From Lucinisca nassula (Eukaryota > Mollusca > Bivalvia > Lucinida > Lucinidae): 64,000 nt of DNA. Made by a program: the position numbers and the translations under genes. Positions 21,939-59,776 of this stretch are shown one piece after another. Each line of letters starts with the position of its first letter. Within the stretch, counting starts at the first letter, position 1. The DNA is taken from positions 136,087,027 through 136,151,026 of the forward strand of contig OY757013.1 in the NCBI GenBank assembly GCA_963580285.1, read 5' to 3'. A model generated the notes under the pieces. The model did no database searches and was not told where the DNA came from. It saw only the letters and a program-made list of their open reading frames with translations.

Positions 21939-22096
21939 TTTCATCGAAATCTATCACGGAATCATTTTTATGTGCTTAGTTGCATTCATAATTGAACAGT
22001 CCTCGTAACCTAACAGCAATTTACGTTTTGCATAACCATGATACATAGGAGGCCTTCAACATTATTTTTACGCGTGTTCAGGTAGTTGCATGTAAT

Positions 22097-23403
22097 TGTC
22101 GCCGGGTGAGCATCAGGGAGTTGTAATGAGACCCAGACAATAGATTTCTGAGGTTGTTTATATACAAGAAAGGGTGTCCTACAAACAAACAAACACGATT
22201 GACAATACACTATCTACAGGACAACACAAATGGTTACTGCTTAATCCATTCAGCAGTACATAAATAATATATCCACCGATATTAACATGGATGAATGACA
22301 TTACAGGACAATATAAACATAAAACAGTGAATGACAGGACACACTCTGCTGGGATGGTTTGGTTTGGTTTTACGGCCCTTTCAAGATTATTTCACTCATA
22401 TCGAGCCAACCCTGAATCAGGTGGACGAAAACTAGAGTACCTGGAGAAAAACCACAGGACCTCCCTTTGCAGTAAGTAGCGTCCTACATATGACCCAAGC
22501 GAGGCTCGAACCACTGCGGCGAGAGACCTAATGGTCAAGAGTCAGCGCTCTTAGCCACCAGGTCACAGAGGCCTGTCCTCTGCCAGGATAAAATGCATGG
22601 ATGAGTGGGGATTTTGGGTTGTGAATACACCCGTATAGGGGCCCCGAGCCAGATGTAAGGCTGACAATGAAAATGACAGTTTGGTGGGGAAACTCCGATA
22701 CATGTGAAGAATTTCATGGCAATGAAATTCTAACACAGGCCGAGTACATTGTGACTTATTAAAGCACTCAAGAATGAAGCTATAGAATAAGCTAGACAAG
22801 TGACCTTCGCAGCTTATACTGCATTATTTTAAATGCAAGCAATATGGTGAAATTCCAATAGTTGAGCATGAGCAACAGCAGTAATATCGAACTAAAGCAA
22901 AATGGCAAATTATTAAATATGCTCAATGTTCAGAATAAAGAACTGGAAATAACAATAGAATAAACAGGTTACAGAACAAGAAATTCATACCTGGCTATGA
23001 CATCTTCAAATTAAACTGGTCAATAAAAGACAATGACTGTCTATAGCAGTTCAGTTGAGAACAATGTAGCCTGGGCGAGTAAGTGACCACTCGCAAGGCC
23101 CTCTTCAGTCCGACTGAATCAAGGCGGTAAAATTTGTGGTGCAAAGTGTGCAGAAGGTCACATGCAGGGTTAGAGAATTAAAACAGCCAACCATACACAA
23201 GCATTCACCCTGGCAACGCTAAAAACATGATAATGATAGGTTAAAACAAGATATTTACCGTTACTGGCATTTAAAGCATGCCAACGTGTTTCGGTTCTAA
23301 ATTTATTACAAAGTGAAGGTCATTACATCAAGCTAGTGACCTAGCTACCGTGCGTCGGAAACGCGAAACACAGAACCGAACCGAAAAAACTACATCTATG
23401 ACA
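22097..23403 (-). repeat. 3' LTR
   Basis: 1307 bp, TGTCATAG...CCGGCGACA on the minus strand. It contains a whole tRNA-derived SINE (22356-22577), which is also in the other LTR, and TATATAAA at 22157-22164. A poly-purine tract lies directly upstream in the sense direction (23404-23412). Confidence 0.92.
22356..22577 (-). mobile_element. tRNA-derived SINE type 1 inside 3' LTR
   Basis: On the minus strand: a weak A-box region (GTGACCTGGTGGCTAAGAGC), a B-box GGTTCGAGCC, then a conserved central block with GTGGTTTTTCTCCAGG-type sequence, ending in a CCAAACCAAACC-type tail. It is flanked by CTCTGCTGGGAT / CTCTGCCAGGAT (22344-22355, 22578-22589), a 12-bp duplication with two mismatches. The central block resembles the META-type SINE domain of invertebrates (from memory). 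Confidence 0.8.
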
Positions 23404-23412
23404 TTCTCCCCT
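23404..23412 (-). promoter_or_regulatory. Polypurine tract for plus-strand priming
   Basis: On the minus strand AGGGGAGAA immediately precedes the 3' LTR (TGTCATAG). A second ACAGGGGAGAATGTCATA-like copy lies upstream, centred at about 23782. Confidence 0.75.
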
Positions 23413-23839: not shown

Positions 23840-26800
23840 CTAAACAAACCACTCCTGTAACTCTGTATCATCAACAGTGTGTTGACCCATGAGCCAATCT
23901 CCATAACGATCTGGTGGAAGACGTACACGACCAGAACGTCTAGGCTGAGGAGTAGTAACGGGTGATGGAGACTGAGTATATCCAGAAGGGATATTTGTGC
24001 CAGTTTGAGAAATAGATTGATGGCTTTCGCCTGGCACACTCATATCTCCACCACCAACTGAAACAGTACTTCTACCACGAAAATTTGAAGAATCCCTGCC
24101 AGAACCGGCTGACTGAGTAATATTTCCAGCTTCAACAATACTGGAGGCATTATCAAAACTGGAAACATTGACAGGACTGAGAGGTTTCCTCCTTGCAGGA
24201 ATAATGTACTTGCCCGATGACTGGAAAGCAGACTCTGACTGGTCAGAATCTGATTCCTCAGTATCAGAATTGTAACTGGGCTGTACATGATTCCTAGGAG
24301 GACGCCTTGGCGTAATCTTTGGTTCTAAAACCTCAGATTTAACAGGAATGACTGAAAATGGGAGTAGCATGTTCCTATGTAAGGTTCTGATGCAGGACTC
24401 GTCAAACTCTTTTTGAACCTTATAAACAGGGATGTTGTTTATGGGTTGAGAAACAACAATATAAGGGCTTTTCTCCCACTTGTCAGCCAATTTCTGCTTG
24501 CCTCTCAGGCCAACCAGCCTGACAAGAACACGGTCTCCAATGTCCAAAGCTGCTTCCCGTACTTTGAGGTCGTAACCTGCTTTGTTACGGGCGGCGCTCC
24601 TTTGTGCTTCTTTGGAGGCAACGTTATATGCGAACTGGAGCCTCTTCTTCAATTTGGTAGCATAATGCTCCTTAGAAGATATAATAGGGTCTTGGTCATT
24701 ATTTAGACCCAAATATGCATCAACAGCCAGCCTCGGATGTCGTCCAAACATTAAAAAGAACGGTGAATAGCCTGTGCTATCATGTTTGGTGGCATTATAA
24801 GAGTGCACTAATGGGGCGACATAAGACTTCCAGTCTTGCTTCTGATGTTCTTCTAAAGTGCCTAACATATTAAGCAAAGTCTGGTTGAACCGTTCTGTCA
24901 TTACATTCCCCATAGCATGGTATGGGGTAGTCCTGGACTTTTCCACACCAGCTAGACTGCAGAGTTCTTTGATAACATTACTTTCAAAGTTTCTCCCCTG
25001 ATCACTATGAAGGCGAGCAGGAAAGCCGTAGTGAACTATGAAGTTCTCGAAGAGAATCTTTGCAGTAGTTTTGGCTAGCTGATTCCTAGTGGGAAAAGCC
25101 TGTGCATATCTGGTGAAATGGTCTGTTATAACCAGAATATGCTCATGACCCCCTTTTGACCTTTCTAAAGATAGAAAGTCCATGCAGACTAGTTCCATTG
25201 GTTGGTGACTAACAATGTTCACCAACTTAGCACTAGGTCTTTGTGGAGTTTTACGTTTGATGCATCGGTCACAGGACTTGACTTTGGTTTCAACATCAGA
25301 CTCCAATCCTGGCCAAAAGAACCGAGAACGAACCAATGACAATGTACGATCGCGGCCTTGATGACCGACATCATCATGTAAATGTTTAAGGACAATATCC
25401 TTAAATTTAGAGGGTAAAACTAACTGCTTTGTCTGTTGGCCATCAAGTACAGTATTTCTGTACAATACAGAACCAACAAAACAGAGTTTTTTCCACTCTT
25501 TAATATATCTAAGAACCTCTGGGGTTTCCTTAGATAGTTCGTTCTTCGTCGGACAAAAGCCATTATGAAGAAACTGGATGACTCTTTTCAGAGTAACATC
25601 AGCAACCTGTTCTTTGGCCCAATCAACATTTTGAATATCAGTTGATTGCAAAACAGTGTCTGTATGAACATCAGAAGATGGTTCAATCTGAGATGCATTA
25701 GTAATAACTAATGCCTCAGCATAAGGGCAAGAATCCCTTTTAACAGTATAAGCCTGACAAATGGCATTTACCACGTCAGAAAACATTTCTGTTTGCTCCT
25801 GCGGGCGTCTAGAAAGACCATCCGCATCCCCATTAGCTTTGCCACTTCTGTAAATAAGTTTAAAATTGTAAGTGCCAAGAGCTGCTAGCCATCTATGACC
25901 AGTAGCATCTAGCTTGGCAGATGAAAGGACATATGTAAGGGGATTGTTGTCTGTGACAACATCAAAATGATTATCATATAAGTAATCATGGAATTTCTCT
26001 GTCACTGCCCATTTTAAGCAGAGAAATTCTAATTTGTGAGCAGGATAATTTTTTTCACTGCTCCGAAGTCCTCTACTGGCATAAGCGATAACTCGTTCAA
26101 GGCCGTCTTGAACTTGATACAACACTGCACCAAGACCTTCGGTCGAGGCATCAGTGTACACAATAAAAGGGCGTTTAAAATTGGCATATGCCAGGACTGG
26201 AGGAGATGATAATTTCTCCTTCAAAGTGTCAAAAGCACTTTGCTGCAATGCACCCCACTGCCAAGGGACTTTATCTCTCTTCTTCTTCTTCTTCTTCTGA
26301 TTATCTGAACCAGGATTTGTTGGGTGCCCAACTAAAAGATCATTCAAGGGCTTAGCCAAACGGGCATAATCTTTAATAAAACGACGGTAATAGCCCGTAA
26401 AACCAAGAAATGATCTTAGTTGCTTAACATTCTGTGGGACAGGCCAAGAAGTCAAAGCCTTCAATTTGTCAGGGTCCGTTTCTACACCATCTTGACTGAC
26501 CACATGACCTAAATAACTGACACTGGTTTTGAAGAATTCGCACTTAGACGGCTTAAGCTTCAGACCGTGTTGTTTCAGTCTACTAAAAACTGCTTCCAGC
26601 CGGTCTAAGTGGTCTTCAAAGGTCTCTGAAAAGATCAGTATGTCGTCCAAGAAAATAAGGCATTCTTTGAGGTTCATGTCGCCCATGCAACGTTCCATTA
26701 GACGTTGAAACGAGGCTGGGGCATTGGTTAATCCAAACGCCATGCGCTGACATTCAAAGAACCCTAGATTTCCCACTGTGAAGGCCGTTAAATGCTTATC

Positions 26801-28012
26801 TTCTTCCTCTACCTCTACTTGCCAGTATCCACTACGCAAATCTAGCTTAGAAAAGTATTTAGACCCTATTAAGGTATCTATAGTATCATCGATACGAGGT
26901 AGAGTGTAAGCGTCCCTTATTGTACGACTATTTAATTTTCGGAAGTCGATACAAAATCGCAAACTTCCATCTTTCTTCCTAACCAAAACTACGTTGGAAG
27001 AGAAGGGACTTTCAGAAGGTCTGATAGCATCAGCCTCCAGCATTTCTTTGATATGAAGCCTTACTTCTTCATACATTGAAGGAGGTATCCTTCGATAGGG
27101 ATCCTTAAAGGGAGTATAATCTGTAAGCTTTATTTTATGCTTAACAAGATCTGTTCTACCAAGATCGGTAGGACTGGTAGAAAATATGTCAGACCAATTT
27201 TCCAAAACCTGCTTCGCTTTTGAAAGCTGCTCAGAAGACAGATTTTGTTTATCTATCTGGTCACTCAAGTTAGGAATAGTTGTAGAGGACTTTTCCTGTT
27301 TCTGCGAGGAATCAGGTGTCCATGCATCAACAACATTCACACTTGTTAAAGTACACAGAATAGACTTAGGGGGAATTTCAATAACTTTGGCCGACAAATT
27401 ACAAACTCTTACAGGAACCCTAATAGTCGTACCTGGGCCTTTAAGTGAAACAACCCTTGGACAAATTGTCAAATTTCCTGAAAGGGAACCATTGGTATGC
27501 TCTGTCACTGCACATTCAATGCCATTTGATTTTCTAACTATACCATGGAGAGTTTTTATTTCCCCAGGGTTGATACGAATGCTATAATTGCATGTTGTTT
27601 TGACAGGCAAACCATCATCGCACATGCTATCAAAGGCAGTCTGCCATTCTACAGGCACATCCGATGGTGGCTTATCCTGCTTAAACAGTCTGATCACATT
27701 CGTACCAATGATTGCTGGAACCTTACTGTTGTAATCAGTGTCTGATACTATCAGAAGAGGAACTGTAATTAAAGAATCCCCTAAAGAAGGCACAGAAATA
27801 TTGGCTTCAATATAGCCTTTGTATGGAAGATGACTACCTCCAGCACTGACAACAGATAAACCAAATTCAGAAATGTCATGTAACTCCGGCAAAGGGTCTA
27901 AAGAATTATAAAAAGTTTCTGAAATTGAAGATATCATTGAGCCTGAATCAATCAAACCAGTTGTTATCACACCTTGAATGCTAATCTGTCCTTCGTTGGC
28001 AGAACCAACCAT
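23840..28012 (-). CDS. pol: Pol polyprotein (PR-RT-RNaseH-IN)
   Basis: 1390 residues from the ATG at 28012, but the frame is open upstream through the end of gag, so synthesis as Gag-Pol by frameshift is likely. Domains by residue: aspartic protease about 1-110 with IDSGS (Asp22); reverse transcriptase about 300-540 with KLDLRSGYW (Asp391) and FLDD (455-457); RNase H about 590-735 with YTDAS (Asp621), Glu662, Asp688 and GDADGLS; integrase zinc finger H879-H884-C914-C917; catalytic core Asp945, Asp1004, Glu1040 (DD35E); a GPY/F-like module about 1155-1215. No chromodomain is seen. A KKKKKK run (573-578) separates RT and RNase H. The C-terminal tail (1220-1390) is Ser/Pro-rich with RRSGRVRLPP near the end. 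Every catalytic residue I could check is present, so the enzyme set looks functional. It acts in cytoplasmic particles and then in the nucleus. Confidence 0.95.
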   Translation of the reverse strand: MVGSANEGQISIQGVITTGLIDSGSMISSISETFYNSLDPLPELHDISEFGLSVVSAGGSHLPYKGYIEANISVPSLGDSLITVPLLIVSDTDYNSKVPAIIGTNVIRLFKQDKPPSDVPVEWQTAFDSMCDDGLPVKTTCNYSIRINPGEIKTLHGIVRKSNGIECAVTEHTNGSLSGNLTICPRVVSLKGPGTTIRVPVRVCNLSAKVIEIPPKSILCTLTSVNVVDAWTPDSSQKQEKSSTTIPNLSDQIDKQNLSSEQLSKAKQVLENWSDIFSTSPTDLGRTDLVKHKIKLTDYTPFKDPYRRIPPSMYEEVRLHIKEMLEADAIRPSESPFSSNVVLVRKKDGSLRFCIDFRKLNSRTIRDAYTLPRIDDTIDTLIGSKYFSKLDLRSGYWQVEVEEEDKHLTAFTVGNLGFFECQRMAFGLTNAPASFQRLMERCMGDMNLKECLIFLDDILIFSETFEDHLDRLEAVFSRLKQHGLKLKPSKCEFFKTSVSYLGHVVSQDGVETDPDKLKALTSWPVPQNVKQLRSFLGFTGYYRRFIKDYARLAKPLNDLLVGHPTNPGSDNQKKKKKKRDKVPWQWGALQQSAFDTLKEKLSSPPVLAYANFKRPFIVYTDASTEGLGAVLYQVQDGLERVIAYASRGLRSSEKNYPAHKLEFLCLKWAVTEKFHDYLYDNHFDVVTDNNPLTYVLSSAKLDATGHRWLAALGTYNFKLIYRSGKANGDADGLSRRPQEQTEMFSDVVNAICQAYTVKRDSCPYAEALVITNASQIEPSSDVHTDTVLQSTDIQNVDWAKEQVADVTLKRVIQFLHNGFCPTKNELSKETPEVLRYIKEWKKLCFVGSVLYRNTVLDGQQTKQLVLPSKFKDIVLKHLHDDVGHQGRDRTLSLVRSRFFWPGLESDVETKVKSCDRCIKRKTPQRPSAKLVNIVSHQPMELVCMDFLSLERSKGGHEHILVITDHFTRYAQAFPTRNQLAKTTAKILFENFIVHYGFPARLHSDQGRNFESNVIKELCSLAGVEKSRTTPYHAMGNVMTERFNQTLLNMLGTLEEHQKQDWKSYVAPLVHSYNATKHDSTGYSPFFLMFGRHPRLAVDAYLGLNNDQDPIISSKEHYATKLKKRLQFAYNVASKEAQRSAARNKAGYDLKVREAALDIGDRVLVRLVGLRGKQKLADKWEKSPYIVVSQPINNIPVYKVQKEFDESCIRTLHRNMLLPFSVIPVKSEVLEPKITPRRPPRNHVQPSYNSDTEESDSDQSESAFQSSGKYIIPARRKPLSPVNVSSFDNASSIVEAGNITQSAGSGRDSSNFRGRSTVSVGGGDMSVPGESHQSISQTGTNIPSGYTQSPSPVTTPQPRRSGRVRLPPDRYGDWLMGQHTVDDTELQEWFV

Positions 28013-28067
28013 ACGCTCTATTAAAGAAGGTTTTACAAAACTAGGGCTTTGTACAGACTCACTATGT

Positions 28068-28111
28068 ACTTCCTCTGTTTGCCCCTCTACAGAGGAAGTT
28101 AATAGTTTAAA
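28068..28111 (-). promoter_or_regulatory. -1 programmed frameshift signal
   Basis: In gag frame the sense strand reads CAT TTA AAC TAT TAA. The heptamer T TTA AAC (28111-28105) is a canonical X XXY YYZ slippery site. Five nucleotides later a perfect 10-bp stem, ACTTCCTCTG (28099-28090) with CAGAGGAAGT (28077-28068), encloses a 12-nt loop. Slipping by -1 enters the pol frame, which is open from there to the pol ATG and beyond. The G-rich loop could pair with a downstream GCCC (about 28045) as a pseudoknot. Confidence 0.8.
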
Positions 28112-29469
28112 TGCTGGTTGTCACTCTCGGCACCGCCGCCACGACCAGCACCACGGCCGCTGGTGCCACCGCGGCCACGGCCCCTTGAGGGACCACCTCT
28201 ATAATTACCACGATTGTTTTGGTAATTTCCATGATTCTGAAAATTATTATTTTGGTTTTGGAAATTATTGCTTTGATTTTGAAAATTATTGCTTTGATTT
28301 TGGAAATTGTTATTATAATTCTGTTGACCTCTACCAAAGTTACCTCGCCAAGAACCTCTTTGAAAACCTCTTCCCCTTCCACGCGAAAATTGTGAGTTAT
28401 ACCCACTTTGAAAAGAAGAAGGGTGAGGAGAAGAACTCGACGAGTTAAAGGACTGTTGTTGAGCTTCAAGTTTCTGTTCTAGGGTTTTCATCCTAGACAT
28501 CAGCTCAGTCATCTGCTTCAGCAACTGAGTGTTCGAGTCATCAGCTGATGCTTGACCACTCTGCTGCTGAGCAACCTTTGACTTTGCTGCAGGCCTAGAA
28601 CTAGAAACCTCTTCCTGCTCAACCTTTCTAATTTCTCTTAACAAAAGTTGAAAATCTGTGACAGAGTCATACAGATGGCGAGTTGAGTTTCTCAACTCCT
28701 TACTTTTCAACCCGGTCCAGAATTTACTACGCAACATTGCGTCCTTAGCTGCAAAGTCAACATGACCACAGCGTACTGCCCTTGACAGTGTTTGCTCTAA
28801 ACGAGAGCCATACGAAACAATTGATTCAGTGTCCTTCTGAAAATCACTGTAAAAGGATTGAATCAATGTCTCAGTGGTGCTGACGTTTCCGTAGAAACCA
28901 TCTAATTTATTTAAAATATCATCCACTGAGGCATTTTCCCCAAGTGGAACAAGCATACCTCTTGCTGCACCTTTGAGGCTATTCCTAATTGCCTGTAAGA
29001 GCACATGCTCTGGCAAATGATTAGAGTTTTGGAGGCACTTGACCTCAAAACTCCAAACTTCATATGAAGTTTCTCCCTTCTGTGGTTCCTCAGATCCACT
29101 GAAGAAGGGTAACTTAGGGACACTAAAAGGCTGGGCAACATAAGAAATATTGCCATTGCCATTATTGGCGGCATCCGGCTGTTGATGTCTCATAGGGGAA
29201 GGATAATAACTTTTAATAGGGGAAGGAGGAACTGTTTTATTTAATAAAAACCTTAACCTGGAACCAGCATTAGGTGTGGTAGCTGTAAAGTTAGGGGTTT
29301 TAGGCCTAACAACAGGGTCTTCCATTCTGGGTTTAGGAGTACTGCTTTGTGCAGTAGCCAACAAGGCTTCATACTCCTCCCTGGTTAAGACTTTGTAATC
29401 AGGGTTTTCATTTAGCCTTTGAATCATTTCCTCAAAATTATCCCCCTCTGTATCTCCTTTTCCAGCCAT
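28099..29469 (-). CDS. gag: Gag, PNMA/Arc-like capsid with RGG boxes
   Basis: 456 residues from the Met at 29469. The frame extends 22 codons further, to 29535, but that stretch is hydrophobic and unlike the rest. Residues ~125-285 carry the capsid-like region (LPFFSG...SYEVWSFEV, then AIRNSLKGAARGML, DDILNKLDGFYGNV, TETLIQSFYSDFQ), which resembles PNMA/Ty3-type Gag by recognition. A coiled-coil-like segment follows (about 314-338, LLKQMTELMSRMKTLEQKL). The C-terminus has an RGRGRG box (363-380), four FQNQ/FQNH-type Asn-rich repeats (389-412) and a second RGG-rich block (423-446). No CCHC zinc knuckle is present, so RNA binding is probably through the RGG/Asn-rich tail. The stop TAA at 28101-28099 lies 3 nt after the slippery heptamer. 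It forms the particle shell in the cytoplasm. Confidence 0.9.
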   Translation of the reverse strand: MAGKGDTEGDNFEEMIQRLNENPDYKVLTREEYEALLATAQSSTPKPRMEDPVVRPKTPNFTATTPNAGSRLRFLLNKTVPPSPIKSYYPSPMRHQQPDAANNGNGNISYVAQPFSVPKLPFFSGSEEPQKGETSYEVWSFEVKCLQNSNHLPEHVLLQAIRNSLKGAARGMLVPLGENASVDDILNKLDGFYGNVSTTETLIQSFYSDFQKDTESIVSYGSRLEQTLSRAVRCGHVDFAAKDAMLRSKFWTGLKSKELRNSTRHLYDSVTDFQLLLREIRKVEQEEVSSSRPAAKSKVAQQQSGQASADDSNTQLLKQMTELMSRMKTLEQKLEAQQQSFNSSSSSPHPSSFQSGYNSQFSRGRGRGFQRGSWRGNFGRGQQNYNNNFQNQSNNFQNQSNNFQNQNNNFQNHGNYQNNRGNYRGGPSRGRGRGGTSGRGAGRGGGAESDNQHLNY

Positions 29470-29805
29470 ACTGGATATTAAAGATATAAAATCACAAAGA
29501 TGAAAAATAAATACTGAATGGTAAATTGAAAACACAGTACAATAAATAGTACTATGTATATATTGACATGTGAACTGGGGCTAATTCACAAATCAAAAAC
29601 TAAAGACCTAAACAATAAATCACTGAAAATCACTGAGAAAAAAAAATACACAACCACTCTGTCAGCAAAATGTGGGCACAGCACTCACAGAAAGTCGTGA
29701 TCCACAAGCAAACAATGAAGACCCAGAGTCCGGATTATAGAATGGTTAGGAAAGTGCCCTCCCCGACTCTCACCAGACCCAGGAATCCAGAAGAATGCAA
29801 ATAAA
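29470..29805 (-). other. Spacer between the SGNH-like ORF and gag
   Basis: 336 bp. A-rich, with no long frame in gag orientation. It could hold a splice acceptor or an internal start context for gag, but I see no decisive signal. Confidence 0.5.
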
Positions 29806-30588
29806 TCACGAGCAATCTGTTAACATCCGTGCAACAATACGTTTCATCCAACACCTTGCTAACAGAGAAGTTGGGTGAACACCGTCTTTATAATTTTTAA
29901 AATTTAAAGACTTTCTTTGTTTACCCCCCTTTGATTTTCTGTATTTTAAAAGATCTAATTTAAAATTAGGAGAGGCTACACAATTTCTATCATTAACTTC
30001 ACGAATCAATTCATTCACGACAGAAATTGTTCGTGTAAGTTTTAAATCCTGCGAATGAAAAGAATTAGGATCTTTATGCCCCTTTGCTTTATTCCATGCT
30101 ACAATGGAATAATAAGGAATTTCAAAGAAAACAAGTTTAACAGACGGAAATTTTGATATAAAGTTAAGATATTTTGTTAACTGAGACTGAATGTAAGCAA
30201 AGGCTTTAAATTCATCTGAATGTCGCAGCTGGATAAATCTGCCTAATTTACAAGTCAAATCACAAGTGCCTAAAAATATATAAAGAACCAGCTGTCCATG
30301 TTGTAAAACCTTTTTAGATAAATTTCTATTAAGCCAATTTAGATATCTTTGTAACTGAGCACCAGATTCACAAATAATTTCAATATTATGATTAAATTCT
30401 TTCAATAAATCTAAATGTGGTTTTAAACTAAAGCCTTTACTGTCAGATAACAAAATAGCATGCTTGTGTAGTCTCCCTTTGAAATCCCAAGATTTTTCTA
30501 AGTACTTTTCTATTTTTCCACTAGTCATCAAAACAAAATGATTAAAGAACCGATAATGTTGTTGTAGGCACAAGTACAATACTGTCAC
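29806..30588 (-). CDS. SGNH/GDSL-hydrolase-like extra ORF of the LTR element
   Basis: 260 residues, same strand as gag and pol, upstream of gag. Blocks fit an SGNH hydrolase layout: AILLSDSKGFS (44-54) as block I with candidate nucleophile Ser50, ESGAQ (74-78) as block II with Gly76, FLGTCDLT (105-112) as block III (Asp where Asn is usual), and KDGVHPTS (234-241) as block V with Asp235 and His238. Between them lie a beta strand VLYIFLG and a KLVFFEIPYY segment, typical of the fold. If active it would be an esterase or lipase-type enzyme; substrate unknown. Esterase-like domains are known in ORF1 of some CR1/L2 LINEs, but I do not know one as a standard part of Ty3 elements. Start is uncertain: Met1 at 30588 or Met21 at 30528. 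Function is inferred from motifs only. Confidence 0.65.
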   Translation of the reverse strand: MTVLYLCLQQHYRFFNHFVLMTSGKIEKYLEKSWDFKGRLHKHAILLSDSKGFSLKPHLDLLKEFNHNIEIICESGAQLQRYLNWLNRNLSKKVLQHGQLVLYIFLGTCDLTCKLGRFIQLRHSDEFKAFAYIQSQLTKYLNFISKFPSVKLVFFEIPYYSIVAWNKAKGHKDPNSFHSQDLKLTRTISVVNELIREVNDRNCVASPNFKLDLLKYRKSKGGKQRKSLNFKNYKDGVHPTSLLARCWMKRIVARMLTDCS

Positions 30589-32337
30589 AGAAAGAAAGCA
30601 AACAAAATCTGCAATTTCAGCTATACACTATAAAGCAGGAACACTAAGTCAAATTCAATAAATTGCAGTTGCAGCTGCATGTGAAAACATTCAAAAAAAA
30701 AATTTTCAATTGCACAACACACTAAGAAAAAAAAATCACAAATTCAATAAATTTCAATTGCAGCTATACAGTCTGGTACCACCTGATACAAGACTGCAGT
30801 TGCAGATATAGAAGTGGACACACTAACCCACCTCACTTGAGCAATGAGCACAAATGCATAAACAAAAAGTCTAAACAATGATGTTGTAAGAATGAAGTCA
30901 AATCACACACATGCAGTTGCAGCTATATAACATACATGTTATAACATGATGTTATAACACAATGTTTTATTAAGATGCTATGTCATAGCAATGTACTATG
31001 TCATATTAATGACACTATGTCACATAAAGTTTAACATATGACAGACAATTAACAATCACATAGAACTGCAGTTGCAGTTGTAAATGTACTCAGACAGACG
31101 GACGGACGAACAGACATGAAAGTAAAGTCATGATTTACTAACAATAAGTAATTGACAACACATGCGACAGACAATTAACAATCAGCACAGAACTGCAGTT
31201 GCTGTTGTAAATGTGGTCGGACAGACAGACGGACGGACGGACAAATTTAAATGAACAGATCTGTCTGAAATAAACTGGAAAAAATAAATTTCCTACCTGT
31301 CTGATGAACCACAACTATTACTTTAACCCTTTCTGTGACATTATTGTCCTTACGGTAACAATTCAGGAAACAGAATACGTACCTACAACAAAATAGGAAT
31401 AGTAAGATTCAAGAAAATTGAAACCAGCATAAATAAAAATGATTTTAGTTAAAAATCACACAGTCACCACATCCATCCTGAAAGTGAACATTAACTGTTA
31501 GTCAGTGAGTGCAACCTATGGACGGATCCTATGCTACAGTGCCACTACAAAAAGACAAAACACATTTATATACAATGGCACTATGATCACAGAATTTTTT
31601 CTTACTGTTCTATCGTCGTCACAGGAATGTTAAAAATTTAACAAAATTGTGAGGCGATGGAACTGTGCACATTTTTTTTCTAAATACTGAATAAATAAGC
31701 ACAGCTTAAATATTCATACATTGACTCACTGATCGGCTTCGCTGTACTTGAACATGACATACACGACATATAACATGTATAACATGACACAGAAAAAAAC
31801 AACATAAATCATATATAATATATAGAAAAATTGAAATAATGTATATAATATATTGAATAATTCAAATTACATACATTATAGAAAATAGGTCAAATAGTAT
31901 ATATATTCCACATATATAACAATGTATATATGAAATACATATATAATATATATAATAATTCAAATAATGTATATAATGTATAGAAAATAACACACACACA
32001 CAAATATCACAGACAAAGTGTCATTCATCACACGGTGGAAAATAACATTAATTGATTCATGAAGAATCAGCTATCACTGGCCATTCCAGTGTCCATAAAT
32101 TAACCACTGGATATGCCAGTGTCCATAACGCGAGACGCGAAGGAAAAAAAAAATATTGTGTGCACACGTTCAGCTGATTATGGCCATTAATGAAACATCA
32201 CTATAACATCACTATAACACACGTAGACAATACAGAATGATTTCCAGCATGGTCGTTATGATGTTGATGATACAATCTTGAAGGAAAGCAGACCAGAACA
32301 CCCTTGTTGTGAGTAAGAATCTGTGGTGGGCGCCATG
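30589..32337 (-). other. Long leader between 5' LTR and first ORF
   Basis: About 1.75 kb without a convincing frame. It has at least six spaced copies of a TGCAGTTGCAG-type word (30664, 30793, 30912, 31066, 31193 and a variant near 30750). The GACAGACNGACGGACGG block occurs twice (near 31090 and 31225), and 31800-31985 is TATATAATATA-rich. Donor-like CAG/GTAGGA (near 31293) and TAG/GTACGT (near 31380) occur on the sense strand; whether they are used is unknown. Confidence 0.6.
32321..32335 (-). promoter_or_regulatory. Primer binding site
   Basis: On the minus strand TGGCGCCCACCACAG starts 2 nt after the 5' LTR end. TGGCGCCCA is the usual start of PBSs complementary to tRNA-Lys 3' ends. The remaining bases match less clearly, so the tRNA identity is tentative. 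Confidence 0.7.
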
Positions 32338-32397
32338 TGTCGCCGGGTGAGCATCAGGGAGTTGTAATGAGACCCAGACAATAGATTTCTGAGGTTG

Positions 32398-32405
32398 TTT
32401 ATATA
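32398..32405 (-). promoter_or_regulatory. Candidate LTR TATA box
   Basis: TATATAAA on the sense strand, followed about 30 nt later by an initiator-like CTCATTAC. Transcription from here would leave an R-U5 region of roughly 35-40 nt. Other AT-rich words in the LTR could serve instead. Confidence 0.4.
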
Positions 32406-32596
32406 CAAGAAAGGGTGTCCTACAAACAAACAAACACGATTGACAATACACTATCTACAGGACAACACAAATGGTTACTGCTTAATCCATTCAGCAGTAC
32501 ATAAATAATATATCCACCGATATTAACATGGATGAATGACATTACAGGACAATATAAACATAAAACAGTGAATGACAGGACACACTCTGCTGGGAT

Positions 32597-32818
32597 GGTT
32601 TGGTTTGGTTTTACGGCCCTTTCAAGATTATTTCACTCATATCGAGCCAACCCTGAATCAGGTGGACGAAAACTAGAGTACCTGGAGAAAAACCACAGGA
32701 CCTCCCTTTGCAGTAAGTAGCGTCCTACATATGACCCAAGCGAGGCTCGAACCACTGCGGCGAGAGACCTAATGGTCAAGAGTCAGCGCTCTTAGCCACC
32801 AGGTCACAGAGGCCTGTC
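32597..32818 (-). mobile_element. tRNA-derived SINE type 1 inside 5' LTR
   Basis: Same SINE, same position and same flanking duplication as in the 3' LTR, so it was in the parental LTR before this copy was made. Confidence 0.8.
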
Positions 32819-33644
32819 CTCTGCCAGGATAAAATGCATGGATGAGTGGGGATTTTGGGTTGTGAATACACCCGTATAGGGCCCCCGAGCCAGATGTAAG
32901 GCTGACAATGAAAATGACAGTTTGGTGGGGAAACTCCGATACATGTGAAGAATTTCATGGCAATGAAATTCTAACACAGGCCGAGTACATTGTGACTTAT
33001 TAAAGCACTCAAGAATGAAGCTATAGAATAAGCTAGACAAGTGACCTTCGCAGCTTATACTGCATTATTTTAAATGCAAGCAATATGGTGAAATTCCAAT
33101 AGTTGAGCATGAGCAACAGCAGTAATATCGAACTAAAGCAAAATGGCAAATTATTAAATATGCTCAATGTTCAGAATAAAGAACTGGAAATAACAATAGA
33201 ATAAACAGGTTACAGAACAAGAAATTCATACCTGGCTATGACATCTTCAAATTAAACTGGTCAATAAAAGACAATGACTGTCTATAGCAGTTCAGTTGAG
33301 AACAATGTAGCCTGGGCGAGTAAGTGACCACTCGCAAGGCCCTCTTCAGTCCAACTGAATCAAGGCGGTAAAATTTGTGGTGCAAAGTGTGCAGAAGGTC
33401 ACATGCAGGGTTAGAGAATTAAAACAGCCAACCATACACAAGCATTCACCCTGGCAACGCTAAAAACATGATAATGATAGGTTAAAACAAGATATTTACC
33501 GTTACTGGCATTTAAAGCATGCCAACGTGTTTCGGTTCTAAATTTATTACAAAGTGAAGGTCATTACATCAAGCTAGTGACCTAGCTACCGTGCGTCGGA
33601 AACGCGAAACACAGAACCGAACCGAAAAAACTACATCTATGACA

Positions 33645-33809
33645 TAATTATGAGTTCATTTGCATTAAAGTATTTTCTTACATACGAACAATTCTATCAC
33701 TAATTTGCAACAATGGGAGAAGGATGGGGCATATTTTACAGATAGGGATTAATTATACGAGTATTTATTCCTGTCAAATATGACAAAGGGATTCAGGACA
33801 ATATGTATT
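33645..33809. other. No feature seen
   Basis: AT-rich sequence between the LTR element and a Penelope-like fragment. I recognise nothing in it beyond the TAAT duplication at its start. Confidence 0.5.
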
Positions 33810-34128: not shown

Positions 34129-34525
34129 CATCACGAAAACACACCTATATAATTTTGACCTCCTTGAACCCAACTTTTATATAGTAAAACTGGGGTTTCC
34201 GGGGGTATACCTTTATTTTTCTTATTTCTGCTTTAATATATAGATTGTGAACACTCGTTAGAACCGCCTCGATGAGGCGGTTCTAACCAGTGCCCACAAT
34301 CTATATTTTGAGCAGAAATAAGACCTTATTTCTGCTCTAATATATAGATTGTGAACACTCGTTAGAACCGCCTCGATGAGGCGGGGATGAGGCGGTTCTA
34401 ACGAGTGCCCACAATCTATATTTTGAGCAGAAATAAGAAAAATATCACAATTTTTCATCTTAAAATTTTCATTTTTTTGGCTATAAAAGTGGCAATGTAT
34501 TTGTATAGGCGTGTTTTCGTATTGG
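34129..34525 (+). mobile_element. MITE-A with two tandem hairpin cores
   Basis: Starts CATCACGAAAACACACCTATA and ends TATAGGCGTGTTTTCGTATTG. The core palindrome occurs twice (about 34228-34312 and 34330-34425), each copy with its TCTATAT flanks and with GCAGAAATAAG between them. The second copy has an extra GGGGATGAGGCG insertion at its apex. Confidence 0.75.
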
Positions 34526-36015: not shown

Positions 36016-36919
36016 CTCCAAATTGCTCCAAATGTACAGGAGGAGTTGTTATGTAAAGAAATTTCGGTTTTTGCAGAAGGTAGCCATCCTGTTCATCGAA
36101 GCACAACTTTAGCTATTTTGGTAGAGGGACACTTAAGCAACATTCCTATAAAGTTAGATTAGAATTGACAAAAACGGTTCAGGAGACGGAATTTAACGCC
36201 AATTGTTGATATTTTTAACTTTTGTGGCCATCTTGCTCATCGAAGCAGAACTATTTTAGCTATTTTGGTAGTGAGTCATCTATGCAACATTCCTATGACG
36301 ATTGAATGAAATTGACCCGAGGGTACTGGAGGGTGAGTTGCTTAAAGAGGTTTTTATTTTTAGCTGTGTTGGCCATTTTATTCATCCCAATGGATCCATT
36401 TTGGCGATTTTGGAAGAGGGTGACCCAAGTAATATTCTATAAAGTTTGAAAGAATTGGCTGAAGGGTTCAGGATGACATAGCATTTAAAGCAGATTGTTG
36501 ATATTTTTCTTTTTCAGTTCTGGTGGCCAGCTTGCTCAACAGAACATGACCGTTTAGCTATTCGGGTAGAGGTAGGCTCTAAGCAACATTCCAGTGAAGT
36601 TTGAAGGACTATGGCCCAGGAGGAGTTGTCGTTTGAGCATGTTTCCATTTTTATCTCTGGTCATCTTATTCATCCCAGTAGAACAATGTTAGCCATATCG
36701 GTAGAAGGTCATATAAGCAACATTCCTATAAAGCTTGGTTGGACATGGCCAAATAATTAAGGAGGAGTTGGCAATTAAAGCCAATTGTTGACGTTTTTCA
36801 ATTTTTAGCTCTTGCGGCCATCGAGCTCATTAGAACGTAGATTAGTAGAGGGTCAGGTAAGCAACATTGCTTTGAAATTTGAATGAAATTGGCCAAAGTG
36901 TTCAGGAGGAGTAGTTGGC

Positions 36920-37034
<115 letters not shown>

Positions 37035-37374
37035 TAGCTCTGGCGGCCTTCTTGTTCATCTGAGAAACATTCCTATAAAGTTCAAATGAAATTGGCCCAA
37101 GGGTATAGGGGGATTTATCTATTAAAGATTTTTCTATCTTTCTAGCCTTGGCGGTAATCTTGTTTATCCGAGTTGAACAATTTCAGCTAAGGTGGTAGGG
37201 GATCACGTAAGCAACATTCCTATGAACTTTTAATTGGAATCGACACAAGGGTGTTTGAGGAGTTATCGTTTAAAGATATTCTATCTTTAGCTCTGGCGTT
37301 CATCTTGTTCATCCGAGCGGAACGATTTTTGCAATTTGTAGAAGGTCACATAGGTTACATTCCTATGAAGGTTG

Positions 37375-37584
37375 CATTACGAAAGCACGCCTATACCAAT
37401 ACATTGTAACCTCTATCGCCGAAAAAATGAAAAATTTAAGATGACAAATTGTGATCTGTTTCTTATTACTGCTCTAAAATATAGAAATAAGAAAAATTAA
37501 GGTTTACCCCCTGTAAACCCCAGTTTCACTATATAAACGTGGGGTTCAAGGGGGTAAAAATAATATAGGCGTGTTTTCGTGATG
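37375..37584 (-). mobile_element. MITE-A without hairpin core
   Basis: Both ends are present (CATTACGAAAGCACGCCTATA and TATAGGCGTGTTTTCGTGATG), as are both arms, but the palindrome is gone: CTGCTCTAAAATATAGAAATAAG joins what are normally opposite sides of the core. Confidence 0.75.
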
Positions 37585-38332
37585 GTTAGACTAGACACAA
37601 GGGTTCTGGAGGAGTTGGCGTTTAAAGCCAATTGTTGATGTGTTTTTATTTTTTTCTCTGACGGCCATCTTGTAGCATTGACTGCCATCTTGTTCATCCA
37701 ATCGGAACGATTATAGCTATTGTGGTAGAGGGTCACATAAGCTACATTCCTGTGACGTTTGATTGCAATTGGCTCAAGGGTTCAGGAGTAGTTGGCATTT
37801 AAATACAATCGTTGGTGATATTTTTAATTTTTATTATTATTATTATTATTTGCTCTGGAGGCCACATTGCTCTTTGGAACGGCAACATGGTTCTCATGAA
37901 GATTGATTTAAATTGGACTAAGGGTATAAGGGAGTTGTCGTTTAGAGATTTATCTATTTTTAGCTCTTGTGGCCATTTTGTTCTTCCGAGCGGAACGATT
38001 TTGGCTATTTTGGTAGAGAATCACTTACGCAACACTCCTGTGAAATTTGCTTGAATTGGCCCAAGGGTTCAGGAGACAAATGTTGATGTTTTTTCTATTT
38101 CAGCTAAGGCGGCCAAATTGCTCATCCGCGCGGAACCATTTTAGCTAATTTGGCAGAAGTTACCTAAGCAACATTTCTATGAAGATTGAATGAAATTGGC
38201 CCAAGGGAATAGGAGGGGTTGTCGTTTATTTTTTTCCTTTTTTTTAGCTCTGATGGTCATGTTGTACATTCGAGCAGAACGATTTTAGCTTTTTTGGTAG
38301 ATGGTTACCTATGAAACATTTCTTGAAGTTTG

Positions 38333-38437
38333 TAGGTCCTCTAAGCGGTATACCAGTACCAATATGCGGTCGGTTTCAGCTCTGCGTGGAAGCATCATGC
38401 AGCCCATCTATTTCTTCAAGCCCCGATGGGCGGGGGC
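38333..38437 (-). mobile_element. SINE-B head fragment
   Basis: GGTCCTCTAAGCGGTATACC to CAAGCCCCGATGGGCGGGGG. Tail half missing. Confidence 0.6.
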
Positions 38438-39278: not shown

Positions 39279-41424
39279 AGCTCACCTGTCACGTAGTGAC
39301 GATGTGAGCTTTTGGGATAACTTTTTGTCCGTCGTGGGTCCGTCGTGCGTCCGTACGTAATTTTTTTCTTCAAACGATATCTCCTCCTAAACCACTGATC
39401 TGATATTAACCAAACTTCAAAGGAATGATCCTTAGGTGGTCCCCTTTCAATGTTGTTCAAATGGTTCCGGTCCATTGCACATCTAGGTCAGAGGAGCCAA
39501 AAATAGATTTGTTTTCACAAAAACATCTTCTTCTCTGAAACCACAAGGCCCAGGTCTTTTATATTTGGTATGAAGCTTCATCCGGTGGAACCCTACCAAG
39601 ATTGTTCAAATTAAAGTGCTGGGGCCAACAATGCATCCGCCCTGGGGCCCTTTGGTTTTAAATGGGCTTATATAGGGAAAAGCTTTAAAAATCTTCTTCT
39701 CTGAAACCGCAAGGCCCAGATCTTTGATATTTAGTATGAAACTTCATCTGGTGGAACCCTACCAAGATTGTTCAAATTATAGTGCTGGGGCCAAAATGCC
39801 CCCGCCCTTGGTTTTTACATTGGCTTATATAGTGAAAATCTTTAAAAAACTTCTTCTCCGAAACCACAAGGTCCATGTCTTTGATATTTGGTATGACGCT
39901 TCATCTAGTGGACCCCTACCAAGATTGTTTAAAATTATAGTGCTGGGGCCAAAAAAGACCCCGCCCGGGCCCCTTTGGTTTTATATGGGCTTATATAGGG
40001 AAAATCTTTAAAAATCTTCTTCTCTGAAACCGCAAGGCGCAGGTCTTTGATATTTGGTATGAAGTTTCATTTACTGGACCCCTACCACGATTGTTCAAAT
40101 TATAGTGCTGAGGCCAAAAATGCCCCCACTCCGGGGCCCTCTGGTTTTACATATACTTATATAGGGAAAATCTTGAAAAAAATCTTCTTCTCTGAAACCA
40201 CAAGGCCTAGGTCTTTCATATTTGGTATGAAGCTACATCAAGTGGACCTCTACCAAGATTGTTAAAATTATAGCCCTGAGACCAAAAATGCCCACGCCTC
40301 GGGCCCTTTGCATAGACGTATATTGGGGAAAATCTTTAAAAAATCTTCTTCTGTGATACCACAAGGCCTAGGTCTTTGATATTTGGTGTAAAATTCCATC
40401 TTATGGACCTCTATCATGATTTTTCAAATTAAAGCCCTGGGGCCAAAAATGCCCCCCCCCCCCCCACGCCCCGACACCCTATGGTTTTACATAACCGTAT
40501 ATAGGGAAATCTTTAAAAGTCTTCTTCTCTGGAACTGCAAGGCCCATGACTTTGATATTTAGTATGGAGCTTCATCTAGTGAACCTTTACCAAGATTGTT
40601 CAAATTATAGCCCTTGGGCCACAAATGCCCTCGCTCTTGGTCCTTTTGGATTTACATAGACTTATCTATAGATAATCTTTGAAAACCATCTTCTCTGAAA
40701 CCACAAGGCCTAGGTCTTTGATATTTTGCATGAAGCTACATCTAGTGGACCTCTATCTAGAATGTTCAAATTATAGCCCTGAGACCTAAAATGCCCCCGC
40801 CTCGGGCCCTTTAGTTTTACATAGACTTATATTGGGGAAAATCTTTAAAAAGCTTCTTCTGTGACGCCACAAGGCCAAGGTCTTTGATATTTGTCGAGAA
40901 ATTTCATCTGATGGACCTCTATCAAGATTGTTCAAATTAAAGCCCTGGGGCCAAAAATCCCCCTGCCCCGATACCCTTTGGTTTTACATAGACTTATATA
41001 GGACAATCTAAAAAAAACTCTCTGAATCTGCAAGGCCCGTGTCTTTGAAATTAAGTATGAAGCTTCATCTAGTGGACCTCTGTCAAGATTGTTTAAATTA
41101 TAGCCCTGAGGACAAAATGCCCATGCCCTACGGCCATTTGGTTTAACATAGGCTTATATAGGGAATATCTTTTAAAAAAATCTTCTTCTTTGAAACCGCA
41201 AGGCCAAGGTCTTTGATATGTGTGTAGCTTCATGTAGTGGACTTTTGCCGAGATTGTTCAAATTATAGCCTTTGTTGATATTTGGTACAAACCTTCACCT
41301 TTTTAGACCTCCCTCAACATAATGCACATTATATCCCTGGGGTCAATAATGGCCCGCCCTAGGGTCCACTTGCTTCTCTATGGATCAGGTGAGCGATCCA
41401 GGGCCACCATGGCTCTCTTGTTAG
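39279..41424 (-). mobile_element. Tandem-array element, ~163-bp period
   Basis: Terminal hairpin AGCTCACCTGTCAC / GTGACGATGTGAGCT (39279-39310), GTCCGTCG-rich tract to 39350, then about 11 units of ~163 bp (CTTCTTCTCTGAAACCACAA, GGTCTTTGATATTTGGTATG, CCAAGATTGTTCAAATTATA, GGGCTTATATAGGG). The other end reads TCAGGTGAGCGATCCAGGGC ... CTCTTGTT (41385-41424). Terminal modules match, in reverse, those of 15434-16752. The unit family is one I associate with bivalves (pearl/CvA-like satellites). Confidence 0.7.
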
Positions 41425-41592
41425 GTATATCACCACTGTGGTTCTAGCCTGGCTCGGGTCAAATGTAAGACGCCAAGTTCTGCAACGGAAGGTCATGTGT
41501 TTTTTCTCCAGGACTCGAGTTTTCGCCCACCTCTGATCGGCTCGATATAAGTGAAATAATCTTGAAAGTGTCGTAAAACGCAGGCCAAGATG
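41424..41592 (+). mobile_element. tRNA-derived SINE type 1, 5'-truncated
   Basis: Starts within the B-box region (CACCACTGTGGTTCTAGCC) and keeps the central block (GACGCCAAGTTCTGCAACGG, GTGTTTTTTCTCCAGGACTC) and the end GGCTCGATATAAGTGAAAT. It abuts the array element, and I see no clear target duplication. Confidence 0.65.
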
Positions 41593-42254: not shown

Positions 42255-42483
42255 TTTTTTTGGTTTTGGTTTTACGGCTCTTTCAAGATAATTCAAATCA
42301 TATCGAGCCGATCGTTAATCCAAGGTGGGCGAAAACCGGAGTACCCGGAGAAAAACCACCTGACCTTCCGTTGAAAAGCTTGGCATCTCACATGTGACCC
42401 GAGCGGGGCTCGAACCCACAGCGGTGAGAGACCTAATGGTTAAGAGTCAGCGCTCTTATCCACTAGGCCACGGAGGCCCGTTA
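42255..42483 (-). mobile_element. tRNA-derived SINE type 1, full
   Basis: Minus strand: A-box-like TGGCCTAGTGGATAAGAGC, B-box GGGTTCGAGCCCC, central GTGGTTTTTCTCCGGGTACT, poly-A-like tail (the T-run at 42255). The perfect 10-bp duplication TGTTATAGTT is at 42245-42254 and 42484-42493. Confidence 0.85.
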
Positions 42484-58753: not shown

Positions 58754-59099
58754 CAGTAGAACTTCGATGGCTCGAACACCGATGGCTCGTTTACCATGGA
58801 TGTGTCGAACCCATTCTTGAGCCCCTAGCTAAATCCTCTACATAAGAAATAGTGGCGGATAATTAAGGAGATTTTAGTCTTTAATCTTGCAAATGTATGC
58901 TGTGTGTACTCATTAGAATCGCCTCGATGAGGCGATTCTAATGAGTACACACAGCACACATATTCATTATAGAACACCTAAAAGATGTCTAAAAGTATCT
59001 CGTTATGCCTCCTGACAGTAACCTCAGTGGCTCGAACTACCCCTGTCTCGAACAAATTTTCGAGGTCCCAAAGGTGTTCGAGTCATTGAAGTTCGACTG
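58754..59099. mobile_element. pogo/Tigger-like MITE
   Basis: 346 bp with ~29-bp TIRs: CAGTAGAACTTCGATGGCTC at left, complement of CAGTCGAACTTCAATGACTC at right, both continuing into GAACACC. TA on both sides (58752-58753, 59100-59101). The CAG...CTG ends and TA target fit pogo/Tigger-type Tc1-mariner MITEs. Inside, at 58893-58970, is a palindrome related to the core of MITE-A and MITE-B (TACTCATTAGAATCGCCTCG / CGAGGCGATTCTAATGAGTA). Confidence 0.75.
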
Positions 59100-59324: not shown

Positions 59325-59744
59325 CTCTTTATTATAAACGCGATGAGTTTGATTTTGAGATTGTAAATTTCCCTTACTTGGATAGTGATGTGCCTCATGC
59401 GGCATACTATGGCATTTATAGTTCGCAATTAATTCGGTTTGCCAGAGTGTCTAGTCATGTAACTATCTTCACCACTCGTAATAAATTGATAGCTGCTAAA
59501 CATCTTAATAAAGGTTATCGGTATTACGGGCCTCCGTGGCCTAGTGGATAAGAGCGCTGACTCTTAGTCATTAGGTCTCTCACCGCCGTAGGTTCGAGCC
59601 TCGCTCGGGCCACGTGTGAGACGCCAAGTTCTGCAACGGAAGGTCAGGTGGTTTTTCTCCGGGTACTCCGGTTTTCGCCCACCTCTGATTAACGATCGGC
59701 TCGATATGAGTGAAATAATCTTGAAAGGGCCGTAAAACCCAAAC

Positions 59745-59776
<32 letters not shown>

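Follow-up and report, generated by a model that had tools for sequence, protein, structure and literature searches.

Retroelements that carry an open reading frame (ORF) for a GDSL or SGNH hydrolase are already known among the Vesta long terminal repeat (LTR) retrotransposons, the Penelope-like Athena elements, long interspersed nuclear elements (LINEs) and Ngaro elements, and ORFs placed ahead of gag are known from the MDG1 group. Here we set these systems, as described in the available portions of the cited reports, beside a gene found in a 64,000-nucleotide stretch of the bivalve Lucinisca nassula (contig OY757013.1, positions 136,087,027 to 136,151,026; hereafter the window), in which an ORF predicted to encode an SGNH-fold protein precedes gag in a Ty3/Gypsy element. 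The reading that we favour, with moderate confidence, is that the product of this accessory ORF is a serine esterase with the SGNH fold, small, soluble and strongly basic, of a Ser-Gly-Cys-His (S-G-C-H) type, and that the gene is kept ahead of gag as an accessory gene by a Ty3/Gypsy lineage, probably of bivalves.

A GDSL ORF3 in the bdelloid Vesta and Athena elements has been suggested to help at membranes (PMC5408684), and Vesta, like the element in the window, combines a GDSL/SGNH ORF with an LTR retrotransposon. By description, however, the Vesta gene is a third ORF beside ORF1 (gag) and ORF2 (pol) with its catalytic residues intact, whereas the gene in the window lies before gag and has Cys in place of Asn. 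The CR1/L2 LINE ZfL2-1 likewise places an SGNH esterase gene (ORF1) ahead of the reverse transcriptase gene, and this esterase is hydrolytically active, with an affinity for anionic phospholipids but not for oligo(A) RNA. It belongs to a multidomain coiled-coil ORF1 of a Gag-less element and carries the canonical Asn195, in contrast to the stand-alone 240-residue protein described here, which is encoded beside a true Gag (PMC3905857). An extra SGNH-hydrolase ORF also occurs in Ngaro-like tyrosine recombinase retrotransposons, although there it follows the recombinase in a different element order (PMC9210276). A parallel in position is provided by sORF1 and sORF2 of the MDG1 group, accessory ORFs that precede gag on the sense strand of LTR elements, but these encode only about 110 and 70 amino acids, respectively, and sORF2 is a transmembrane FAST-like protein rather than an enzyme fold (PMC11952523, preprint).

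Among the papers listed by searches of the open-access literature, outside which lie Repbase and most subscription papers, none describes an SGNH ORF ahead of gag or one carried by Ty3 elements of molluscs. In the available portions of two papers on mollusc LTR elements, the word ORF is absent from one (PMC6238403) and the words GDSL and esterase from the other (PMC8905726). A putative SGNH/GDSL esterase is now also seen ahead of gag in a lineage of Ty3 elements from bivalve sequence, and because one fold is repeatedly paired with unrelated retroelements, a shared life-cycle step that needs acyl-ester chemistry is suggested.

Predicted fold and active site of the accessory protein

On the minus strand, the accessory frame stays open between position 30627 and the stop codon at 29806. 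An earlier note on this DNA placed the ORF on the sense strand of an intact element, within its LTRs and upstream of gag, and the reading frames and the LTR pair bear this out. All four motifs that it named are present in SGNH block order, namely SDSKG (residues 28–32), ESGAQ (54–58), FLGTCDLT (85–92) and KDGVHPTS (214–221), with Asp215 and His218 spaced by 3 residues. The start proposed there, at 30588 with a product of 260 residues, has to be moved: the codon at 30588 is GTG and finds no support in the family alignment, which rules it out, and the ATG at 30528 fits the family and gives 240 amino acids. Specifically, 93 of 122 aligned relatives begin within one residue of this ATG, 13 are longer and 16 are gapped in that column (the query row, trimmed at 30528, is excluded from the 122).

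Structure prediction, which the earlier note had proposed as a check, yields a model with the alpha/beta/alpha architecture of an SGNH fold, so that the first refuting outcome named there, a model lacking this fold, did not arise. In this model Ser30 sits after the strand E23–28, at the position of the block I nucleophile, and Cys89 is located after the third strand. Gly56 occupies the position of the block II oxyanion Gly and aligns weakly with the Gly of the TesA SGDT motif in hhalign, as does LGTCD with TesA LGGND (E 0.0025, probability 11.8). Asp215 and His218 supply the Asp-x-x-His of block V. Several of the top fold matches are acetylesterases or acetyltransferases for small acyl groups.

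In canonical SGNH enzymes, the Asn of block III (GxND) serves as an oxyanion donor. Every sequence retrieved for the accessory family has Cys at this position (124/124, counting the query and 123 relatives), unlike the catalytic subunit of PAF acetylhydrolase Ib (1wab; 13% identity to the accessory protein) and bacterial GDSL esterases, which carry the canonical Asn. Because this Cys replaces Asn throughout the family, the protein is not a canonical SGNH hydrolase, and judging by its sequence it is better named an SGNH-fold protein of the S-G-C-H type. The earlier description of the product as SGNH-hydrolase-like therefore holds for the fold, the Ser, the Gly and the Asp-x-x-His, and fails for the Asn. 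Mei5_like, the top Pfam hit of the query (E 0.064–0.081), was rejected since it matches only 2 of 123 family members.

Family conservation and pairing with gag

A single-sequence search with the accessory protein returned 41 homologues at E ≤ 0.01 (best 2.2e-140), which places the ORF far beyond chance. A profile search with the family returned 371 relatives, the best 120 of which were listed, and 123 distinct proteins were retrieved. A source organism is named for 8 of these 123; the named relatives come from Mytilus edulis, M. coruscus, M. galloprovincialis and Pinctada imbricata. One relative is an ‘invertebrate metagenome’ record that UniRef names an SGNH hydrolase-type esterase, and three are proteins in metagenome-assembled genomes (MAGs) of Candidatus Thiodiazotropha taylori, a lucinid clam symbiont, which we take to be host contamination. 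The element lineage that carries the accessory ORF thus probably belongs to bivalves, an assignment based on few named relatives.

Counted over rows with a residue at the position, among the query and its 123 relatives, Ser30 is kept in 121/121, Gly56 in 121/121, Asp215 in 120/123 and His218 in 121/122. The complete Ser/Gly/Cys/Asp/His set is present in 117 of the 123 rows of alignment A3, which includes the query and leaves out P0041 (also left out of A2; P0026, P0037 and P0040 were left out of A1). Alignment columns average 32% identity across the family, and no relative falls below 34% identity to the query. Because the site residues are kept while the rest of the protein diverges, this pattern argues for purifying selection, although the relatives come from a database of predicted ORFs biased toward intact copies, and site conservation differs from a test of the ratio of nonsynonymous to synonymous substitution rates.

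The N-terminal part of P0041, a Mytilus edulis gene model of 390 amino acids, matches the accessory family, and its tail has no significant match to the gag or pol of the element or to 120 gag relatives (best E 0.30). Scans of viral contigs (with A1 and P0108) and of genome contigs (with A1) revealed no relative. A fast-diverging SGNH hydrolase-like gene of Mytilus could not be tied to the accessory family from the available part of its report (PMC9063065).

Gag itself has 152 relatives at E ≤ 0.001, of which the best 120 were used for comparison; among the matches listed, the named sources are Saccostrea cucullata, Pinctada imbricata, Ruditapes philippinarum and MAGs of the same symbiont. To look at pairing, each cluster was represented by the size of its longest contig, and these sizes were compared between 68 SGNH and 92 gag clusters for which this contig spans at least 3 kb. 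Nine SGNH/gag pairs have identical sizes (4019, 4139, 4292, 4738, 6350, 7300, 7520, 7561 and 1594287 bases), whereas jittered sizes give a mean of 0.22 pairs, with a maximum of 3 over 2,000 trials; a tenth pair, of 1,679 bases, lies outside the count. This is strong but indirect evidence that the members of each pair lie on the same contig, and the sizes say nothing of order or strand. Because eight of the nine paired contigs are under 8 kb, the two genes would be close together on them; the ninth, a contig of 1.6 Mb, gives no sign of closeness. Two Thiodiazotropha MAG proteins carry the locus tags N0E59_21405 (SGNH) and N0E59_21415 (gag). Indirectly, then, the accessory ORF is shown to recur together with this gag family.

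These data bear on the idea that one copy of the element recently acquired the ORF from its host, as a gene with no function in the element. A single copy of the element was read at the DNA level, as such a capture would allow, but the site residues are conserved in relatives as distant as 34% identity, some of which pair with the same gag family by equal contig size. We strongly disfavour such a capture and give it next to no weight; indeed, the homologue searches together with the same-length gag pairing lead us to reject both a chance ORF and a passenger confined to one copy. The accessory ORF looks like a working part of the element rather than a stray passenger.

Proposed function and competing readings

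The accessory protein has a charge of +21 (range +5 to +22 over 119 rows of at least 220 amino acids), and its highest 19-residue Kyte–Doolittle mean is 1.24, so that by this measure, with no dedicated transmembrane predictor run, it is without a strongly hydrophobic segment. From its conserved residues we infer that the protein is catalytically active. If this model is correct, Ser30 would be the nucleophile that attacks an acyl or acetyl ester, within a catalytic triad completed by His218 and Asp215, and Gly56 and Cys89 would line the oxyanion pocket. Less surely, the separate protein may be a cytoplasmic factor that acts in trans. Its basic surface might bind anionic membranes there, and hydrolysis of lipid or acetyl esters might aid Gag particles or ribonucleoproteins (RNPs) in assembly on membranes, movement along them or release from them. 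Such a membrane role in Gag assembly or RNP transport is proposed by likeness to the ZfL2-1 esterase.

Several results weigh against the esterase reading. The Foldseek TM-scores on the query are moderate, at 0.41–0.60 for matches at E ≤ 0.001. The query has no significant Pfam match, and neither it nor its profile has a meaningful sequence match among solved structures in the PDB; Lipase_GDSL scores 12.4 bits on the query, below the cut-off of 23.6, and at E ≤ 0.1 it matches 12 of the 123 proteins in the family, with 1.9e-4 as the best value. The block III Asn is replaced in all sequences, and in SaOatA an Asn-to-Ala change in block III abolished activity (PMC9487903). The basic charge would suit RNA binding no less than membrane binding, and intragenomic variation in the ORF3s of bdelloid Vesta and TelKA is described as mostly neutral (PMC5408684). 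Furthermore, 59 of the 68 SGNH clusters have no partner among the listed gag relatives. The use of listed relatives and of one size per cluster could explain this, but some elements may also lack the ORF, or some copies gag. The SGNH and gag identity matrices are also only weakly correlated (Mantel r 0.29, p 0.075; 11 linked pairs, window included).

A live rival, which we consider doubtful, is that the protein is a pseudoenzyme that retains the SGNH fold for binding or scaffolding (of membrane, RNA or a Gag partner), with the change from Asn to Cys marking lost catalysis. The invariant Cys at the oxyanion Asn position and the strong basicity of the protein are in keeping with this idea, as are the GDSL derivatives without catalytic residues described in Athena-L (PMC5408684). 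However, the Ser, Gly, Asp and His would be expected to drift in a dead enzyme, and they are nearly invariant. Moreover, SASA and PatB1 are SGNH enzymes without the usual role of the block III Asn, their oxyanion pockets being rebuilt with Gln and Arg, respectively (PMC9487903), so that a change from Asn to Cys does not by itself imply a dead enzyme. Our literature search on the block III oxyanion residue, in the available text of its sources, found no Asn-to-Cys SGNH family, a result far from proof of absence. PAF acetylhydrolase and ZfL2-1 have highly conserved catalytic residues (PMC3905857).

An active enzyme might also serve elsewhere than at membranes. Under one such account, also live and in our view unlikely, it deacylates or deacetylates host RNA, protein or glycan involved in silencing or innate sensing, and thereby counters host defence. 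The acetylesterases and small-acyl acetyltransferases among the best fold matches and the low hydrophobicity maximum favour this account, but a substrate cannot be read from fold similarity. Far less probable is a substitute for an envelope protein, that is, a factor for passage between cells comparable to sORF2, which precedes gag in Drosophila MDG1 elements. The position upstream of gag is shared, and sORF2 is found at membranes with capsids and has been proposed to act in cell–cell fusion (PMC11952523, preprint); by contrast, the accessory protein has no strongly hydrophobic segment and is modelled as an enzyme fold rather than a FAST-like helix.

Returning to the esterase reading, a tentative extension is that the family is a retroelement-dedicated SGNH subfamily, old in bivalve Ty3 elements, in which the invariant oxyanion-pocket Cys tunes or redox-gates activity; a separate membrane- or acyl-modifying enzyme made early might let particles without an envelope protein assemble on or cross membranes. 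A large, apparently soluble and confidently modelled family with a single odd active-site residue makes the question open to simple biochemistry.

Host element and surrounding sequence

The host is a Ty3/Gypsy LTR retrotransposon, with two LTRs, a short target-site duplication, gag, and reverse transcriptase, RNase H and integrase in the order typical of this group (Table 1). Read along the minus strand, the element consists in turn of 5′ LTR, leader, accessory ORF, spacer, gag, pol and 3′ LTR, and the accessory, gag and pol frames are all uninterrupted. The LTRs, of 1,307 bp each, are 99.85% identical, and this near-identity points to a young insertion. TTTAAAC belongs to the class of −1 frameshift slippery heptamers, and because it lies in phase just ahead of the gag stop codon, pol is probably made by −1 gag-pol frameshifting.

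Table 1 Features of the Ty3/Gypsy element (window coordinates)
Feature	Position	Strand	Details
Target-site duplication ATTA, 5′ side	33645..33648	minus	read from LTR alignment
5′ LTR	32338..33644	minus	TG...CA
Leader between 5′ LTR and accessory ORF	30529..32337	minus	1809 nt, 47 upstream ATGs
SGNH-fold accessory ORF	29806..30528	minus	240 codons + stop, ATG at 30528; Ser30, Gly56, Cys89, Asp215, His218
Spacer, accessory ORF stop to gag ATG	29470..29805	minus	336 nt
gag ORF	28099..29469	minus	456 codons + stop, ATG 29469; PNMA-type capsid match PF14893, E 2.1e-12; RGG-rich C-terminus
TTTAAAC slippery heptamer	28105..28111	minus	gag frame, in phase, 3 nt ahead of gag stop codon
pol open frame	23840..28120	minus	1426 codons; reverse transcriptase, RNase H, integrase in Ty3/Gypsy order
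Purine-rich tract, candidate polypurine tract	23404..23411	minus	adjoins 3′ LTR
3′ LTR	22097..23403	minus	TG...CA; 2 differences from 5′ LTR
Target-site duplication ATTA, 3′ side	22093..22096	minus	read from LTR alignment

The accessory ORF may be translated from a spliced RNA, from a short RNA or by re-initiation. Acceptor-like sites are present 193 and 53 nt upstream of its ATG and 163 nt upstream of gag; however, the top acceptor score in the region, under a scheme devised for this analysis, is 8.7 compared with a median best score of 8.8 in 500 shuffles, so separate spliced RNAs for the accessory ORF and gag are unsupported. In MDG1 elements, peptides have been detected for both pre-gag ORFs, and a short transcript of sORF1 terminates at an alternative polyadenylation site (PMC11952523, preprint). 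The leader contains a direct repeat of about 84 nt (31034–31116 and 31160–31243; 86.9% identical) upstream of the accessory ORF.

Both LTRs contain a repeat of about 220 bp (22358–22576 and 32599–32817), with further copies in the window at 42259–42478 and, inverted, at 59526–59748 and 41421–41579 (80.6–83.4% identity); it looks like a short interspersed nuclear element carried inside the LTR. The sole tRNA call by ARAGORN, tRNA-Val(gac) at 58756–58837, is possibly false, because there is no Rfam match at gathering score anywhere in the window. An array at 39489–41274 is built from a unit of about 165 bp, present in 10 to 11 diverged copies. A dispersed diverged repeat occupies 36100–38336, where several copies recur at spacings of about 145 or 288 bp, and a long TA run lies at 36937–37036. 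Finally, a 92-nt inverted repeat (34129–34220 and 37493–37584), 84% complementary with its arms 3.3 kb apart, possibly represents the ends of a DNA transposon.
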